Below, one piece after another: positions 10,081 through 30,152 of a stretch of DNA of 30,218 bases (position 1 is the stretch's first letter; each line of letters starts with the position of its first letter). The DNA is from a virus. The notes beneath the pieces are model-generated. The model searched no databases. It saw only the letters and a list, made by a program, of their open reading frames with translations, and was not told where the DNA came from. The DNA lies in IMG/VR virus record IMGVR_UViG_3300023196_000653, positions 1-30,218 of that record. One strand, written 5' to 3'. The position numbers and the translations under genes are program-made.

Positions 10081-10118
10081 AGGGGTGGGTAAATAGTTTC
10101 CGTTTGCTACCCCTTTTA
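10081..10118 (-). terminator. Hairpin after the large terminase gene, possible weak terminator
   Basis: AGGGGT at 10081-10086 can pair with ACCCCT at 10109-10114 across a 22-base loop. The arm is immediately below the terminase stop codon. On the coding strand the stem is followed by CTTATT, not a clean T run; on the plus strand it is followed by TTTT. It could attenuate transcription between the packaging and tail blocks or act in either direction. The long loop makes it weak. Confidence 0.35.
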
Positions 10119-11318
10119 TTGTACAAAATACTTCCCTGCATTAGGATTGTCTAAATGGTAAATTACATTATATCTAATCCCATCAATAGCGTGATTGTAA
10201 TTATCAACATATAATTTTGAGCCCTTATCAGCATATATATAGTTATTCAATTCCTTTGCAATATTTGTGCTCTCGGGTGTAATGATTAAATGATAATCTT
10301 GCATACGGGTTATCCCACTCTCAATAGTTCCTTTTTTAACTGCTTTGATGTTTATTCCTAAGTGCTTCAAATCTTCAATCAATCTTGGCTCGGCTGAATC
10401 TGCTATGATTAATTTGCTTCCTACTCTATCAATTACAATTTTAGCCAAATCGTGTAATTTCAAACCATTACGATAAATATGCTCTTTAATGTAGATTATC
10501 CTTTTCTTTTTATCAATAGCAACTTCTGATAAACTATCGGGGTCTACTGAAAAACCAAAATCCATACCACAAGATGTCTGTAAATTATCAGGATTGAATT
10601 CCCCTATGCTCCAATTGTCAAATACTACTCCCTCTGCTTTGTCAAGCCAACCTCCTAAAATCTTGTGAGTATATTTCTTGAAGTTATTTAGTTTTATGCT
10701 TCTAATCCTTTCTAAGAAACTATCTGATAAGTTCTGTATGTTATCTAAGTATGTACTGTGAATGTAGCAGACATTATCTTTTATACCATTAAATCCTCCC
10801 TCAACTCCTTTCTCCTCAAAAAACCTATTGTATATCCAATGTTCCTTAGTTACGGGATTAAGTATTAAAATAACTCTATTTTGATTTGTTTTATCCCTTA
10901 TACTTAAATCAATCGTGTCAAATATATCTTCATCAACCAACTCCTCTGCTTCATCAAGTACCCAACAGTTAATCCCTTGTAATGATTTCAAACTTGCAGT
11001 CTGATTTCCACTAGAGGTTTTTATTCCTCTAAATAATATATCTGAACTATTGGTTTTATTTATTACTTCTGATTTATTCACGTGAAACATATTGTCATTA
11101 TAACCAAGCAATCCAATCTTTTGTAGGAATTCTGGTATAATAGACAAGTGAGCACTTACCATTGTATACCTTGTGAATAGTATTCTAATACCCTTTGACA
11201 TTGTGAGTAAAGTTAGGAATACTGTAACAGCAAAAGATTTACCCGAACCCCTTCCCCCAGTTATAATAAAATACCTACAAGACGCATCAAATAGTGGGTT
11301 GTATTTTTTATTCAGTAT
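10116..11318 (-). CDS. terL: Terminase large subunit (packaging ATPase/nuclease)
   Basis: This is the motor that translocates DNA into the prohead and cuts it. Walker A, GGRGSGKS, lies at 11235-11258. Walker B is INCWVLDEAEE. The RuvC-like nuclease carries the expected acidic residues: CGMDFGFSVDPDS, then IIADSAEP, then YNHAIDGIRY near the C-terminus. This is the Terminase_3 layout. The first in-frame ATG (11201) lies after Walker A, so it cannot be the true start. Upstream the frame stays open to a TAA at 11340-11342 with no ATG, GTG or TTG. I place the start at the ATA at 11318 (a CTG follows at 11315), giving about 400 residues and the expected short N-terminus before Walker A. This start is uncertain. 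The gene overlaps the end of the small terminase gene. Confidence 0.9.
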   Translation of the reverse strand: MLNKKYNPLFDASCRYFIITGGRGSGKSFAVTVFLTLLTMSKGIRILFTRYTMVSAHLSIIPEFLQKIGLLGYNDNMFHVNKSEVINKTNSSDILFRGIKTSSGNQTASLKSLQGINCWVLDEAEELVDEDIFDTIDLSIRDKTNQNRVILILNPVTKEHWIYNRFFEEKGVEGGFNGIKDNVCYIHSTYLDNIQNLSDSFLERIRSIKLNNFKKYTHKILGGWLDKAEGVVFDNWSIGEFNPDNLQTSCGMDFGFSVDPDSLSEVAIDKKKRIIYIKEHIYRNGLKLHDLAKIVIDRVGSKLIIADSAEPRLIEDLKHLGINIKAVKKGTIESGITRMQDYHLIITPESTNIAKELNNYIYADKGSKLYVDNYNHAIDGIRYNVIYHLDNPNAGKYFVQ

Positions 11319-11667
11319 CAGAGTCAGTTTCGTAAAAGGTTATCAATGGAATATGAATTGCACTATCATCTGATGTTATATCTATTCTATTTTTTTCATT
11401 CCATCCTAATATGTTTTTTGCAGCGTGTATCACAACAGCAGGTACTTTATCGGACACACATTCATAATACTTTGACTTGACAAAATCTTGTGATATACAA
11501 TCCAACTCTTTTACTTGACGAGCAAACTCCTCATCTTCCTTTAGCCATTTATAGTAATTTGTCCTTGATAAATCTGTATTCTTTAATGCAGCAGTTACCA
11601 CTCCTAGTGAACTCTCTAGGGCTTGAAGCATCTTCTTTTTATTGATTTGTGTTCTATTTTGTTCCAT
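11308..11667 (-). CDS. terS: Terminase small subunit
   Basis: The 119-residue protein has an N-terminal helix-turn-helix (about residues 8-45, KKKMLQALESSLGVVTAALK then SRTNYYKWLKEDEEFAR). This is the typical DNA-recognition domain of small terminases, in the style of terminase_2/HTH proteins that choose the packaging site. A helical oligomerisation region follows (EYCISQ..KSKYYECVSDK-like, residues 55-90) and then an acidic tail (TFYETDSDTE). It recognises packaging-site DNA and passes it to the large subunit. The start overlaps the sugar epimerase gene by 14 bases. Its 3' end overlaps the opening of the large subunit frame, so synthesis of both subunits is probably coupled. Confidence 0.8.
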   Translation of the reverse strand: MEQNRTQINKKKMLQALESSLGVVTAALKNTDLSRTNYYKWLKEDEEFARQVKELDCISQDFVKSKYYECVSDKVPAVVIHAAKNILGWNEKNRIDITSDDSAIHIPLITFYETDSDTE

Positions 11668-12487
11668 TTATGTATGTTTTTAAATCGTTGTGGCATTCCC
11701 ATTTCAATACTTTCTTTGTATCATTTGGTATTGTAACAGCATTGTATCTTTCTCCTTTCCTTTTTGGTATATACTCTATATTGTCTGTAAACATCTTGGC
11801 TACATCTTTAATCTTGTAGTCTATATCAGAACTCAAATACCATTCCTTATTCATATCTATACTCCTTACTTTATTAAGAGCATTTACAATATCATCAATA
11901 TGTGTGAATTGTCTGCTTTGTTCTCCATCTCCTACGATAGTTAAGGGCTTCCCTGCATTATATTGTTTTTCAAATATTCCTATTACAGTAGCATAATCTC
12001 CCTCTGATATATGATTTTTTCCATAAACATTATAGAAATAACAAATCTCATATTTTAATCCATACCATTCTTTATAGTTTTTAATCAATTCAACCATCTT
12101 TGATTTTGTCCAAGAGTATGGGCTCAAATCTTCATTCCCTCCAAATTTACTACTTGAAGCCGAATAGATTAGTTTTGCATTCCATATTTTACATTGTTCT
12201 ATAACTCTACTTGTTCCCCATAAGTTTGATGTCATTAGATAATTTACATCTTTGAATGAGGGTACCACTCTGCTATATTCTCCTAAATGATAAACAACAT
12301 CTTGTTTTGGTAAATCACTTATTTGCCAACTTGATGTATTTATGTACTTTACTCCCTCTATATGATTTGACTCCCAACCCGTAAAATAGTTATCTACTGA
12401 TGTTATTTGAGCCTTAGTATGTTTCTTTAGGTATTTGATTAAATTGCTTCCAATATATCCTGCTCCTCCCGTTACTAATATTTTCAT
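11654..12487 (-). CDS. NAD-dependent nucleotide-sugar epimerase/dehydratase
   Basis: This is an extended short-chain dehydrogenase of the UDP-glucose 4-epimerase type. The NAD-binding motif GGAGYIG is at residues 7-13, an acidic residue follows the second strand (SVDNY, residue 32), the catalytic serine cluster is SASSS (109-113), and the catalytic pair is Y124-x3-K128 in LSPYSWTKSK. The later phrase GDGEQSRQFTHIDDI, about residues 182-196, is typical of the sugar-binding half. At 277 residues it is slightly shorter than the usual 310-340. It interconverts or dehydrates a nucleotide sugar. Its start overlaps the stop of the TAGT-type glycosyltransferase by four bases (ATGA), so it probably supplies or tailors the sugar donor for that enzyme or its neighbour. 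The exact substrate is not readable. Confidence 0.85.
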   Translation of the reverse strand: MKILVTGGAGYIGSNLIKYLKKHTKAQITSVDNYFTGWESNHIEGVKYINTSSWQISDLPKQDVVYHLGEYSRVVPSFKDVNYLMTSNLWGTSRVIEQCKIWNAKLIYSASSSKFGGNEDLSPYSWTKSKMVELIKNYKEWYGLKYEICYFYNVYGKNHISEGDYATVIGIFEKQYNAGKPLTIVGDGEQSRQFTHIDDIVNALNKVRSIDMNKEWYLSSDIDYKIKDVAKMFTDNIEYIPKRKGERYNAVTIPNDTKKVLKWECHNDLKTYINGTK

Positions 12488-13374
12488 TTGTTATCTTTAT
12501 AGAATTGATTTAATGATTTGCTCTTTATTTCTTTTACCTTTTTTAATTTTATGTCTGATTTTTTGGCTTCAATTTTATCCCAATCTATATCAGTTCTCCT
12601 CACAAGTCCGTGCTTAAAATGTTTCCCCCAATTTACATAGTGATGTGGTCTATTAAATCTTATTTTGGTTTCAGAGTATTGCGGCCAAATCTCCTCCAAA
12701 CTTCTTGCTTTCAATATTTTCTTTTCGTGTGCATTTCCTAAGTATAATTCATCTTGGTTACCTCCTTTCATTTTAGCAACTGTACTTGTCTTATCTATAA
12801 TGAACGCATTAAACAATAGGGTGCATAGTTTGTTATCTAAAACTTGCAAACATAAATCTACATCTTCATTGTATTTTAATCTCCAACGATAAGGCATATG
12901 ATTTTTGATTAACAAAGCAGAATATGCGTGTACATTTATATAGAATGGTTTTCTATCTGAACTCCCAGGCACTACAAATGTTCCGTAATTAAAACCCGTG
13001 ATTGCTACATTCTCATATCTATCTGTAAATTCCTCTAATACTTTAATTGCTTTTAGTGAATTGCAGGGTATTTTATTTCCTTTATGAACTCTCCTAATTT
13101 TCATTATATTGTCATCAAAACACCAATGTCTTTCGTGTCCATCTTTAAGACTTAGTTCCCACGCGTGATTTCTTGCAGGGTGTGAGCCTAAACCTAAATT
13201 AGCGAATGGTAGTTTAATGATATATTCCTCCCCTATGCTATCACAATACTTCTCATATTCTTGTGGCTCAACGAGTATTTTAAAATCAACTCCATCCTTT
13301 TTAAAAAAATTAGCAGTCTGTGGATTTTCCCACCTGCCTTTAGATATTATGTAAACGGGATATTTAGTATTCAT
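12484..13374 (-). CDS. TET/JBP-associated-type glycosyltransferase (TAGT family)
   Basis: The N-terminus PVYIISKGRWENPQT (residues 6-20), the VEPQEYEKY phrase (35-43), LPFANLGLGSHPARNHAWE (55-73) and the HWCFDDNI motif (83-90) match what I recall of the TAGT group. That group is GT-A-like phage enzymes predicted to glycosylate oxidised cytosines in DNA. The FDDN acidic pair would bind the metal and nucleotide sugar; a later acidic NEDVDL at about 169-174 could hold the catalytic base. The C-terminal 40 residues are Lys-rich. The gene is coupled on both sides (11-base overlap with the upstream glycosyltransferase, 4-base with the epimerase). No TET/JBP oxygenase or pyrimidine hydroxymethylase is visible, so the acceptor is open: DNA base, virion protein or host glycan. 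Confidence 0.75.
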   Translation of the reverse strand: MNTKYPVYIISKGRWENPQTANFFKKDGVDFKILVEPQEYEKYCDSIGEEYIIKLPFANLGLGSHPARNHAWELSLKDGHERHWCFDDNIMKIRRVHKGNKIPCNSLKAIKVLEEFTDRYENVAITGFNYGTFVVPGSSDRKPFYINVHAYSALLIKNHMPYRWRLKYNEDVDLCLQVLDNKLCTLLFNAFIIDKTSTVAKMKGGNQDELYLGNAHEKKILKARSLEEIWPQYSETKIRFNRPHHYVNWGKHFKHGLVRRTDIDWDKIEAKKSDIKLKKVKEIKSKSLNQFYKDNK

Positions 13375-14302
13375 TTAGTATTTTTTTATAGTTATCTCCT
13401 AATATATGTTTTGCTTCATATGATACTAAGCAATTTTCAGGTAGTTCATTCCAAAAATTATCACTTACCTTTTCTGATTTTACAAATGCTGATTCAAAAA
13501 AGTGTTGAACTATATAACTATTTTCTAATATATCTCTGTAATGTGGTAAAGGGTAACCAAATAGTTTATTGTCTCCATTAAATTTTGTTGGGCTTTGAAT
13601 AGAATAGCACTTCCCTGCTCCTAACCACGCAGGTACGGGGCAAAAGGATAACGGGGGGAAAACTTTATAATCAGTATCTTTTTTCATTATAGTTTTCAAA
13701 GTCCATATTACATAATTCCAAGCCTTTGAATTTGTTTTCGGTGGTGCTAATAGAGTGTGCATTATTTGGTGTGATAAACTTTCAATATGTTTTTTCATAC
13801 TTTCATTTACCCTTATTGGAAATGCAGCCAATTCTTGTCCGTTCCAACTATTATCGTGTATTGTTAAAGGTGGGTGTGCGTTCCCCCATTTTGGAGCAAC
13901 CCCTCCACTTCTTTTTGCCGGCATACTTGCAAACCATCCAAACTCTGTGGGTAACTTCTTTAATAAAATAGCGTCCATATCTAAAACTACTCCTTTTACA
14001 ATACTAGCATATTTTAATCTTACAGCATCAGAAATGTGAGCAATACTATGACCATCTTCTAAGGATTCATAAGCATTATTAAGTGGAAAATATTCCCCTG
14101 CATCTTTAATGGTTACATTTTTAGGTATTCTATCATTAAATTTTTGATATGTAAATAAAACCACTTCATTATCTAATTTTTCGTGTGCCAATAAAGATAA
14201 TTTATGAAACGGGGATAAATCTATTTTATGATTTACAAAATCATCCTTACTCATATTAGAATTGTATTCACTCCAAAATAAGATATGTTTCATTTTATTC
14301 AT
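13364..14302 (-). CDS. DXD-containing glycosyltransferase (GT32-like, Gly_transf_sug type)
   Basis: The key motif is ISDAVRLKYASIVKGVVLDMD at about residues 90-110. This is the signature (SDxxR...G.xxDxD) of glycosyltransferases with a sugar-binding DXD region; the D-M-D at 108-110 would bind the metal and the nucleotide sugar. The protein is soluble, 312 residues, with a Trp/His-rich C-terminal half. A second ATG at 14293 (MKHILF) is an alternative start. The first overlaps the ParB-like gene by eight bases. Its stop overlaps the TAGT-type gene. It probably transfers a sugar before or after the TAGT enzyme in one pathway; the acceptor is unknown. Confidence 0.7.
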   Translation of the reverse strand: MNKMKHILFWSEYNSNMSKDDFVNHKIDLSPFHKLSLLAHEKLDNEVVLFTYQKFNDRIPKNVTIKDAGEYFPLNNAYESLEDGHSIAHISDAVRLKYASIVKGVVLDMDAILLKKLPTEFGWFASMPAKRSGGVAPKWGNAHPPLTIHDNSWNGQELAAFPIRVNESMKKHIESLSHQIMHTLLAPPKTNSKAWNYVIWTLKTIMKKDTDYKVFPPLSFCPVPAWLGAGKCYSIQSPTKFNGDNKLFGYPLPHYRDILENSYIVQHFFESAFVKSEKVSDNFWNELPENCLVSYEAKHILGDNYKKILNEY

Positions 14303-14897
14303 AACTTAATGAACTTAAATCTCTCCTCTCCTCAAATGGATATGTTGTACTCCAAGTTCTTCCCGTTCCCTTGCTTAGTTTCAAATCAATTTTCTTTACA
14401 AAGTCCTCTCTTGTTTCATTATCTTTAAATGTAATAACAATATTGATTGATTCATTCTTTGGCTCAAAGTCAGGCATTCCCACCCATTCTGAATTCTCAT
14501 CTCCTTTATTTACTTTATTGGTTTGGTCATCATAATTTTGCCACACATCTAAACTCCAATCATTTAAATTTGTAGTATCCCAATCATTAGCCAACATTGT
14601 CCAATCCCATTCTCCATAGGTTACATTGTCCTTTATGACAAACTCATCCTTTTTTTCTTGACTCCAACCATCTGCTGTATCTACCCAAATATCTTTTAGT
14701 CCTGCTTCTTTTGCTGCCCTATACCTCATATTTCCTCCGAGTATCATCATATTTTCATCAACGATAATTGGTCTAAGTTCTAGCATCTCAGGAAGTTCTG
14801 TGATACTTTTTACCAACTCTTTAAATTTTTTGTCTTTAATGATTCTAGGGTTTTTTGGGTTACCCTTAACCTTGTAAATCTTAATCTGTTGTTTCAT
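14295..14897 (-). CDS. ParB/Srx-fold protein with unusual C-terminal domain
   Basis: Residues about 10-66 form a ParB-like N-terminal fold: NPKNPRII (13-20), a KFKELVKSI helix, RPIIVDENMMILGGNMRYRA (42-61), with GGN-x-R the nucleotide-binding phrase. Such domains occur in ParB partition proteins, in phage ParB-like nucleases and next to DNA-modification genes. The next section (FVIKDNVTYGEWDWTMLAND) is also common in this phage type. The C-terminal 50 residues (INIVITFKDNETREDFVKKI) look like a separate small alpha/beta domain. It leads the coupled sugar cassette, so I infer a DNA-binding or NTPase part of a DNA modification or packaging process. Nuclease activity is possible but unproven. 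No partition system partner (ParA) is present. Confidence 0.7.
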   Translation of the reverse strand: MKQQIKIYKVKGNPKNPRIIKDKKFKELVKSITELPEMLELRPIIVDENMMILGGNMRYRAAKEAGLKDIWVDTADGWSQEKKDEFVIKDNVTYGEWDWTMLANDWDTTNLNDWSLDVWQNYDDQTNKVNKGDENSEWVGMPDFEPKNESINIVITFKDNETREDFVKKIDLKLSKGTGRTWSTTYPFEERRDLSSLSYE

Positions 14898-29088: not shown

Positions 29089-29697
29089 CTTTGTCTTTGT
29101 TTGATTTTCGTTAATTATTTCATTAAGTGCCGATAAAATTTCCTCTATACTTGGTTTTTCATCAGCCATCAATTCCATTTTGTCTGTAAAGTAGCCTTCA
29201 ATAGATAATCCTTTCAACTCCCCATCTTTAATCTTGCTCCATAGTTCATCATTATCAATTCTCATTTTTACAAACCAAGTTCCATTTGGTAAATCAAAAC
29301 CATACATCTTTGACTTGTCCATATCACCCTCTTTAATCCAACTCTCAGTAGTCAGAACTCCACTCACTCTATCTTGGTGTTGGTAAGTCGCTTTATGATG
29401 GTTATTGTGTTTCAAATATAATTCACTTGCTTTCCTTACAGTATCTTTTGAAAAATAAACATAATAATCACTATTAGTATTAGGATTGTGTCTAAAGATT
29501 TGCTTGTTAGGTATTAAGGCAGGACTAATTAACATTCTCTTTTCCTCATCTACTTTTGCAAATGTTAGATTGTTTTTTTCCTTTCCGAAGTAAACAAAAT
29601 CTTGCTCAATAGCAGGACTTGTAACTAAAGATATTGCGTCAATAGCCAACTCTTGATTTTCATCTTGTATTACTAATTCTACAATTTTAGTTTCCAT
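29086..29697 (-). CDS. Prohead serine protease, XkdF-like (S78_2 type)
   Basis: The catalytic layout is visible: HHKATYQHQDRVSG with the probable catalytic H107, a central strand set (TESWIKEGD, GTWFVKMRIDNDELW), and GELKGLSIEGYF with nucleophile S165. An N-terminal strand section opens with METKIVELVI and ISLVTSPAI. The 203 residues match a phage prohead protease that trims scaffold and capsid protein. Its ATG overlaps the stop of the 151-residue coiled-coil gene (TAATG). A near-identical copy of its first 24 codons, with two silent changes, sits at the left window edge. Confidence 0.8.
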   Translation of the reverse strand: METKIVELVIQDENQELAIDAISLVTSPAIEQDFVYFGKEKNNLTFAKVDEEKRMLISPALIPNKQIFRHNPNTNSDYYVYFSKDTVRKASELYLKHNNHHKATYQHQDRVSGVLTTESWIKEGDMDKSKMYGFDLPNGTWFVKMRIDNDELWSKIKDGELKGLSIEGYFTDKMELMADEKPSIEEILSALNEIINENQTKTK

Positions 29698-30152
29698 TAT
29701 CCATTAATGTAATTATCCATTTCATTTAATCTTGAGTCAAAGTCGGATATTCTATCATCTGCATCACTTGCTGCATTATCTGCTTCAGTATACCCTGGCA
29801 ATTCCTCCTCTCTTATTCCCAAGTCATTAGCAACTTTTTCTGCTTCTTTTGTTAAACCATAAATGATATTTTGAAATTCTAATATTCCTTTAGTTACTCT
29901 TTCCAACTCTGTATATAACCCATCTAATTCAGCCATTCCGTCCTCAACTTCTCTAATAACTCCGCTTGAATCACTATAAAGTTCATCTCCTGTTCTTATA
30001 AGTGTTCTTAATTTAATTTCTGCGTCCTCCATATCCCCAACAAGTGTGAAGTTTACCTTATGGACTTTAGATAGTTTCTTTAACTTTACTTCATTTTTCT
30101 TTATTGCTGCTTTATATTCAGCGAATGTTTTTTTTCCTAGTGGTGTTACCAT
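29697..30152 (-). CDS. Helical coiled-coil phage protein, paralogue B (151 aa)
   Basis: It shares TPLGKKTFAEYK at its N-terminus with the 149-residue gene at 73..522, and both have the same order of helical blocks and the same length, but most of the rest differs (for example KVNFTLVGDMEDAEIKLRTL against KIELTLAGDLTNLGKGLTAI). It ends in an acidic DDRISDFDSRLNEMDNYING. It is followed directly by the protease gene. Just upstream (30178-30218) lies the C-terminus of another copy of the 149-residue gene, so A and B appear in tandem. Role unknown: helical assembly or minor structural protein. Confidence 0.75.
   Translation of the reverse strand: MVTPLGKKTFAEYKAAIKKNEVKLKKLSKVHKVNFTLVGDMEDAEIKLRTLIRTGDELYSDSSGVIREVEDGMAELDGLYTELERVTKGILEFQNIIYGLTKEAEKVANDLGIREEELPGYTEADNAASDADDRISDFDSRLNEMDNYING

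Follow-up and report, generated by a model that had tools for sequence, protein, structure and literature searches.

Glycosyltransferases of the TAGT family are known from several systems of phage DNA hypermodification. In the TET/JBP-TAGT systems, such as that of Nonlabens phage P12024L, a TAGT-family enzyme is encoded in a phage operon. T-even phages first supply 5-hydroxymethylcytosine (hmC) and an alpha- or beta-glucosyltransferase, and the TAGT of T2 and T6 (beta-glucosyl-HMC-alpha-glucosyltransferase) puts glucose on glucosyl-hmC (PMC13216743, 2026); that paper also reports solitary TAGTs, with 288 of 753 phage genomes having no alpha- or beta-glucosyltransferase. ParBc proteins adjoin CmoX and are fused to methylases, a role described as unknown (PMC12783734, 2025), and ParB/Srx domains have been discussed as nucleoside triphosphate (NTP)-regulated nucleases (PMC5512222). 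Here we analyzed a six-gene cassette of IMG/VR virus record IMGVR_UViG_3300023196_000653 (30,218 bases, the whole of which is called the window), in which a ParB-like gene, two glycosyltransferase genes, and an epimerase gene lead into the terminase genes terS and terL. Our comparisons suggest that the cassette probably glycosylates DNA after replication and that it occupies a general slot for ParB plus a modifying enzyme, just upstream of the terminase genes. DNA is the favored substrate because ParB precedes TAGT wherever the contig reaches that far, the ParB slot mostly holds DNA-modification enzymes, and the C-domain of ParB matches the enzyme. The features of the cassette are as follows.

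14295..14897, minus strand: ParB-like putative adaptor, 200 aa (PF02195, 5e-7; precedes TAGT in 71/71 loci with room for it)
14544..14897, minus strand: ParB N-module, common to all modification-cassette classes (60-76% identity between classes)
14295..14513, minus strand: ParB C-module with a SEWVGMPEF-type motif, specific to the TAGT cassettes of this clade (46% identity within the class, 18-24% versus other classes)
13364..14302, minus strand: DXD glycosyltransferase, variable slot 1 (PF04488-like signature)
12484..13374, minus strand: TAGT-family glycosyltransferase, cassette core (PF20691, 6.6e-39)
11654..12487, minus strand: extended SDR nucleotide-sugar epimerase/dehydratase, optional donor-sugar enzyme (PF01370, 2.6e-33)
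11308..11667, minus strand: terminase small subunit, terS (PHROG 4044, 6e-5; synteny)
10116..11315, minus strand: terminase large subunit, terL, with probable start at 11315 (PF04466, Terminase_3, 3e-24)

All six genes lie on the minus strand where a preliminary description of the window had placed them, and from ParB to terS they overlap by 4-14 bases, namely 8 bases between ParB and the DXD transferase (14295-14302), 11 between the DXD transferase and TAGT (13364-13374), 4 between TAGT and the epimerase (12484-12487), and 14 between the epimerase and terS (11654-11667). This layout is far beyond chance because it recurs in dozens of contigs.

A search for relatives of the TAGT gave 80 viral loci. 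ParB is found upstream of TAGT in 71 of them, and the other nine contigs end first. The epimerase is present in 38 of the 80. Because the identity of terL to that of the window runs from 85% down to unrecognizable in these loci while TAGT stays at 49-81%, the ParB-TAGT pair must have been exchanged between phages whose terminases differ. No gene apart from TAGT and ParB is common to all 11 genomes compared (the ParB of G003 being seen in L024), and the terminases and structural genes differ. In L084-L086, TAGT is just 38% identical to that of the window despite a close terL (86% in L084 and L085), and judging from these loci even the core TAGT can seemingly be replaced.

We also searched viral sequences with ParB, disregarding the sugar genes, and obtained 80 loci, namely those most similar to a query ParB that is linked to Mom; of these, 75 have content after or fused to ParB. 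DNA-modification-type enzymes occupy this position in 70 of the 75: 44 Mom, 17 ParB-methylase (N6/N4) fusions, two CmoX-like and two DpdA-like enzymes, one TAGT with TET/JBP, one kinase with TET/JBP, and three TAGT alone. The remainder are four ABC-GNAT proteins and one cupin with a PAPS reductase. In Bacteroidota genomes, ParB is followed by Mom (3e-49), by TAGT, or by a DpdA-like gene (our own reading, with no Pfam match) together with QueC (5e-53) and QueD; elsewhere in these genomes, ParB is fused to an N6/N4 methylase or is followed by a C5-type methylase with the SPPC motif known from CmoX. TAGT and TET/JBP occur together in the ParB..terS slot in loci L120 and L189, with the order ParB-TAGT-TET/JBP-terS in a Flavobacteriaceae prophage (TET, 7.6e-11; TAGT there is below the Pfam cut-off). 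From this slot content, including the TAGT and TET/JBP of L120 and L189, we infer that the cassette acts on DNA, and the guess to that effect in the preliminary description gains strong comparative support.

Individual loci show the following occupants after ParB. L206:891-2164 encodes ParB, then a small P-loop (kinase-like) protein, then TET/JBP, and the P-loop protein, which stands where TAGT would be, is possibly a kinase of hydroxymethylated DNA. A fused ABC-ATPase and GNAT protein is found in the ParB..terS slot of L175, L179, L180, and L202 and is a candidate new DNA-modifying enzyme. In L203:5083-7073, the genes after ParB encode a cupin-like protein and a member of the PAPS-reductase family, and PAPS-reductase proteins are also found downstream of ParB in L122 and L125; a sulfur-based DNA modification is possible at such loci. 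C5-methylase-family proteins after ParB in L124:6521-7564, L168, and L182 carry GSPPCS, a motif that has been described in the CmoX carboxymethyltransferases.

The ParB-like protein scores above the Pfam cut-off for ParB_N (PF02195, 5e-7), and its structural model matches CTP- and CDP-bound ParB in Foldseek at E 4.5e-6 to 7.4e-6 (7bnr, 4.5e-6). Scans of the window proteins found no ParA-type family as a partner. The N-domain is 60-76% identical regardless of the modification enzyme downstream, whereas C-domain identity is 40-75% inside an enzyme class and 18-26% between classes, in figures that are not corrected for kinship within classes. Because the N-domain is common to the classes while the C-domain matches the enzyme, we infer as the best fit that ParB is an adaptor whose shared part faces DNA and whose other part docks a particular enzyme. 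The earlier suggestion that ParB is the DNA-handling part fits both the modeled CTP-type fold and the enzyme-matched C-domain. The ParB-fused methylases and the ParBc proteins near CmoX (PMC12783734) share the same N-module in the same place, beside a DNA-modifying enzyme and the terminase; unlike in the methylase fusions, ParB of the window is encoded on its own, and its C-module is one found in TAGT cassettes only. ParB could instead be an NTP-regulated nickase or DNase directed against host or unmodified DNA, with the adjoining enzymes shielding phage DNA. DNA nicking by a Bacillus cereus ParB-methylase and NTPase or DNase activity of other ParB/Srx domains are reviewed in PMC5512222, and if a protecting enzyme stood next to a nuclease, ParB would likewise be strictly paired with modification enzymes of many kinds. 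The variable, enzyme-matched C-domain reads more easily as docking, however, and ParB stands directly ahead of terS with no modification enzyme in prophage loci L114 and L121, so we consider a nuclease role unlikely.

The 296-residue protein was rightly labeled TAGT-type: it matches PF20691 at 6.6e-39 and scores 134 bits against a cut-off of 27.5, covering profile positions 1-205 of 205, and its GT-A acidic motifs, D87-D88 (FDDN) and D171 with D173 (EDVD), are invariant in 35 homologs. In the tree, the window clade joins Vibrio TAGTs that belong to the T4-type family (100/99) and is separate from the TAGTs linked to TET, with long branches that make the deep joins unsure. The window TAGT shares about 37% identity with Aeromonas T4-like TAGTs and about 26% with the Nonlabens TAGT, which lies on another branch. 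It is in the same Pfam family as the T2/T6 enzyme, which is also the type of the Vibrio TAGTs that it joins. Neither window glycosyltransferase matches PF11440 or PF09198 (alpha- and beta-glucosyltransferase) at E<=1, and the relatives were not searched for these two families; in the window, neither an hmC supply nor such a glucosyltransferase was found, in contrast to T-even phages. Like the solitary TAGTs described in PMC13216743, the window TAGT has no known partner glucosyltransferase; that paper does not mention ParB, and the parts of it that were consulted describe no swap slot and do not analyze acceptor supply for the window clade.

The second glycosyltransferase is less clearly assigned. 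The DXD transferase scores 14.8 against the PF04488 cut-off of 23 (E 0.05, below the Pfam cut-off), and its alignment with bona fide PF04488 enzymes in hhalign gives E 6e-4 and a probability of 29%. Twelve relatives keep its S-D-x-x-R...G-x-x-x-D-x-D signature without variation. The structural model is of low confidence (predicted local distance difference test, pLDDT, 61), with the PaToxG glycosyltransferase as the best PDB match (E 0.02). By sequence, no significant PDB relatives were found for TAGT or the DXD transferase. The epimerase falls below every NCBIfam specificity cut-off and has no PDB match at 1e-20.

Enzymes that could make an acceptor for the sugar were searched for in the window and its relatives. 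TET/JBP is found in 0 of 22 records (the window and 21 relatives), in a search that recovers the copy of Nonlabens phage P12024L at 2.8e-29. Thymidylate synthase/hydroxymethylase (PF00303), which is found in 9 of 14 control genomes, is present in 0 of 20 clade records, as is C5 methylase. The preliminary description had seen no oxygenase, methylase, or hydroxymethylase in the window, and this holds for the relatives as well. No gene that could make the acceptor is kept in all 11 TAGT genomes, where ParB and TAGT are the sole universal genes. A hidden 2-oxoglutarate oxygenase in the window was considered and rejected, since its HxD/E...H motif matches only otherwise-assigned, structural, or small proteins. 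For ten relatives, the view of Pfam families covers the top 25 of the 58 found, which leaves a rare oxygenase in a single relative possible.

Within the DNA reading, an unrecognized phage oxygenase or a host enzyme could supply 5-hydroxymethylcytosine or 5-hydroxymethyluracil, which TAGT would glycosylate as in the TET-TAGT phages. The sharing of the ParB slot by TAGT and TET/JBP in L120 and L189 speaks for such priming, as do the TET-TAGT-methylase operon of P12024L and the grouping of the window clade with T4-type Vibrio TAGTs, whose T2/T6 members act on glucosyl-hmC (PMC13216743). The window differs from the TET/JBP-TAGT systems, whose TAGTs can occupy the identical slot, in having neither TET/JBP nor a cytosine methylase. 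The failure of the searches for TET/JBP, hydroxymethylase, and C5 methylase, together with the lack of a further gene common to the 11 genomes, makes priming of this kind a possibility that we would not bet on. With slightly lower confidence still, we tentatively propose that TAGT and its ParB adaptor glycosylate an unmodified base or a novel handle without hydroxymethylation, and that the slot-1 genes extend, methylate, or sulfate the sugar, giving interchangeable 'glycotypes' in close relatives. Conceivable acceptors are a base without modification, a handle made by the host or by a cryptic route, and structures not yet thought of.

The content of slot 1 varies among relatives. The variable gene sits between ParB and TAGT and less often downstream of TAGT. 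It can be the DXD transferase of the window, another DXD transferase (PF04488, 1e-13), a second TAGT (1e-24), an FkbM methyltransferase, another methyltransferase, or a sulfotransferase (2e-12), or the slot can hold nothing; a nucleotide-sugar dehydrogenase may stand ahead of ParB. Wherever a related locus with the window-type DXD transferase was found, the gene adjoins ParB or TAGT. L038 and L041 are 98% identical in terL, 95% in TAGT, 94% in ParB, and 99% in the epimerase, and the slot holds a second TAGT in the former versus the window-type DXD transferase in the latter; L009 and L007 are 100% identical in terL and 99% in TAGT, with FkbM versus the window-type DXD transferase in the slot. 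The decoration gene thus swaps between near-identical phages.

A number of observations weigh against DNA glycosylation by the cassette. We know of no role for FkbM methyltransferases or sulfotransferases in DNA modification; both are common on protein and surface glycans. The TAGT of Vibrio phage 1.076.O (L090:6534-7703), which bears a 110-residue N-terminal extension, lies between portal and head-morphogenesis genes. The enzymes for a hydroxyl acceptor were not found in the searches above, the DXD transferase model is too uncertain for detailed use, the ParB identities carry their kinship reservation, and the choice of query inflates the share of Mom among the 80 ParB loci, a bias that distorts the proportions and does not account for the kinds of enzyme in the slot. 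The glycosyltransferases might instead act on virion proteins or host surface glycans, with the place beside the terminase genes being a late-gene insertion spot. The FkbM, sulfotransferase, and capsule-type DXD enzymes of slot 1 are those usual for such glycans, and the TAGT among the head genes of phage 1.076.O would suit this explanation. Nevertheless, it leaves unexplained the invariant ParB partner, the enzyme-matched C-domain of ParB, and the presence of Mom, methylases, CmoX-like enzymes, DpdA/QueC, and TET in the ParB..terS slot, and we regard it as improbable.

If the cassette glycosylates DNA, the N-domain of ParB, probably an NTP-gated DNA clamp, would engage phage DNA, and the enzyme-specific C-domain would deliver TAGT to it. 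TAGT would attach the first or core sugar, drawing on a nucleotide sugar made with the help of the epimerase, and another sugar would come from the DXD transferase of slot 1. Relatives with a second TAGT, an FkbM methyltransferase, or a sulfotransferase in the slot would presumably vary the decoration under pressure from defenses that sense modification.

The preliminary description had all six genes overlapping, and this holds; only the terL start of the listed open reading frame needs correcting, because the Walker A motif lies upstream of the first ATG. The ATG open reading frame of terL (10116-11201) lacks Walker A and falls 106 bases short of terS. The terL frame is open from 11339, has no ATG, GTG, or TTG ahead of Walker A, and overlaps the terS end, an arrangement kept in six close relatives (L010, L013, L019, L020, L021, and L024). 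A CTG overlapping the terS end (junction 11308-11339) is conserved in the window and these six. Translation of terL probably starts at this CTG, at 11315, or is reached by a +1 frameshift from terS.

The record has a GC content of 32% and its genes on the minus strand. Besides the cassette, it encodes a portal, an XkdF-type protease, tail genes (structural roles assigned from position and relatives), an M15 peptidase, NinG, a DnaD-like replication protein, and a single-strand binding protein. Because the XkdF gene comes straight after the tape-measure gene in four relatives and the two lie at opposite ends of the window, the simplest reading is that the window is probably a complete, circularly permuted genome; with its ends joined, the gene absences would not be explained by a missing piece. 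Two paralogous small genes (TPLGKKTFAEYK start), one at each end of the record (73-522 and 29697-30152), are probably a tandem duplication. The relatives of ParB in bacterial genomes are nearly all in Bacteroidota, and from them the host of this marine phage most likely belongs to this phylum. No TAGT-bearing prophage was found in 399 Flavobacteriaceae genomes, a set that held no positive control.

Solitary TAGTs and ParB-methylase fusions have already been published, and the cassette is probably a variant of the hypermodification of phage DNA that may reasonably be expected to hide new chemistry. In a literature search of incomplete coverage, which leaves priority uncertain, we found no earlier account of the ParB-TAGT partnership, the enzyme-matched ParB C-domain, a plug-in slot beside the terminase that serves several types of modification, or the swapping of sugar-decorating genes. 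If our interpretation is correct, a large group of uncultured marine phages would glycosylate DNA without a known priming enzyme, and one ParB-based slot at the terminase would be a plug-in site for many known chemistries of phage DNA modification. The genes between this ParB and terS would then provide a search rule for new DNA-modifying enzymes, phage ParB proteins would gain a testable role, and the slot-1 exchanges would be evidence of rapid swapping of DNA decorations.

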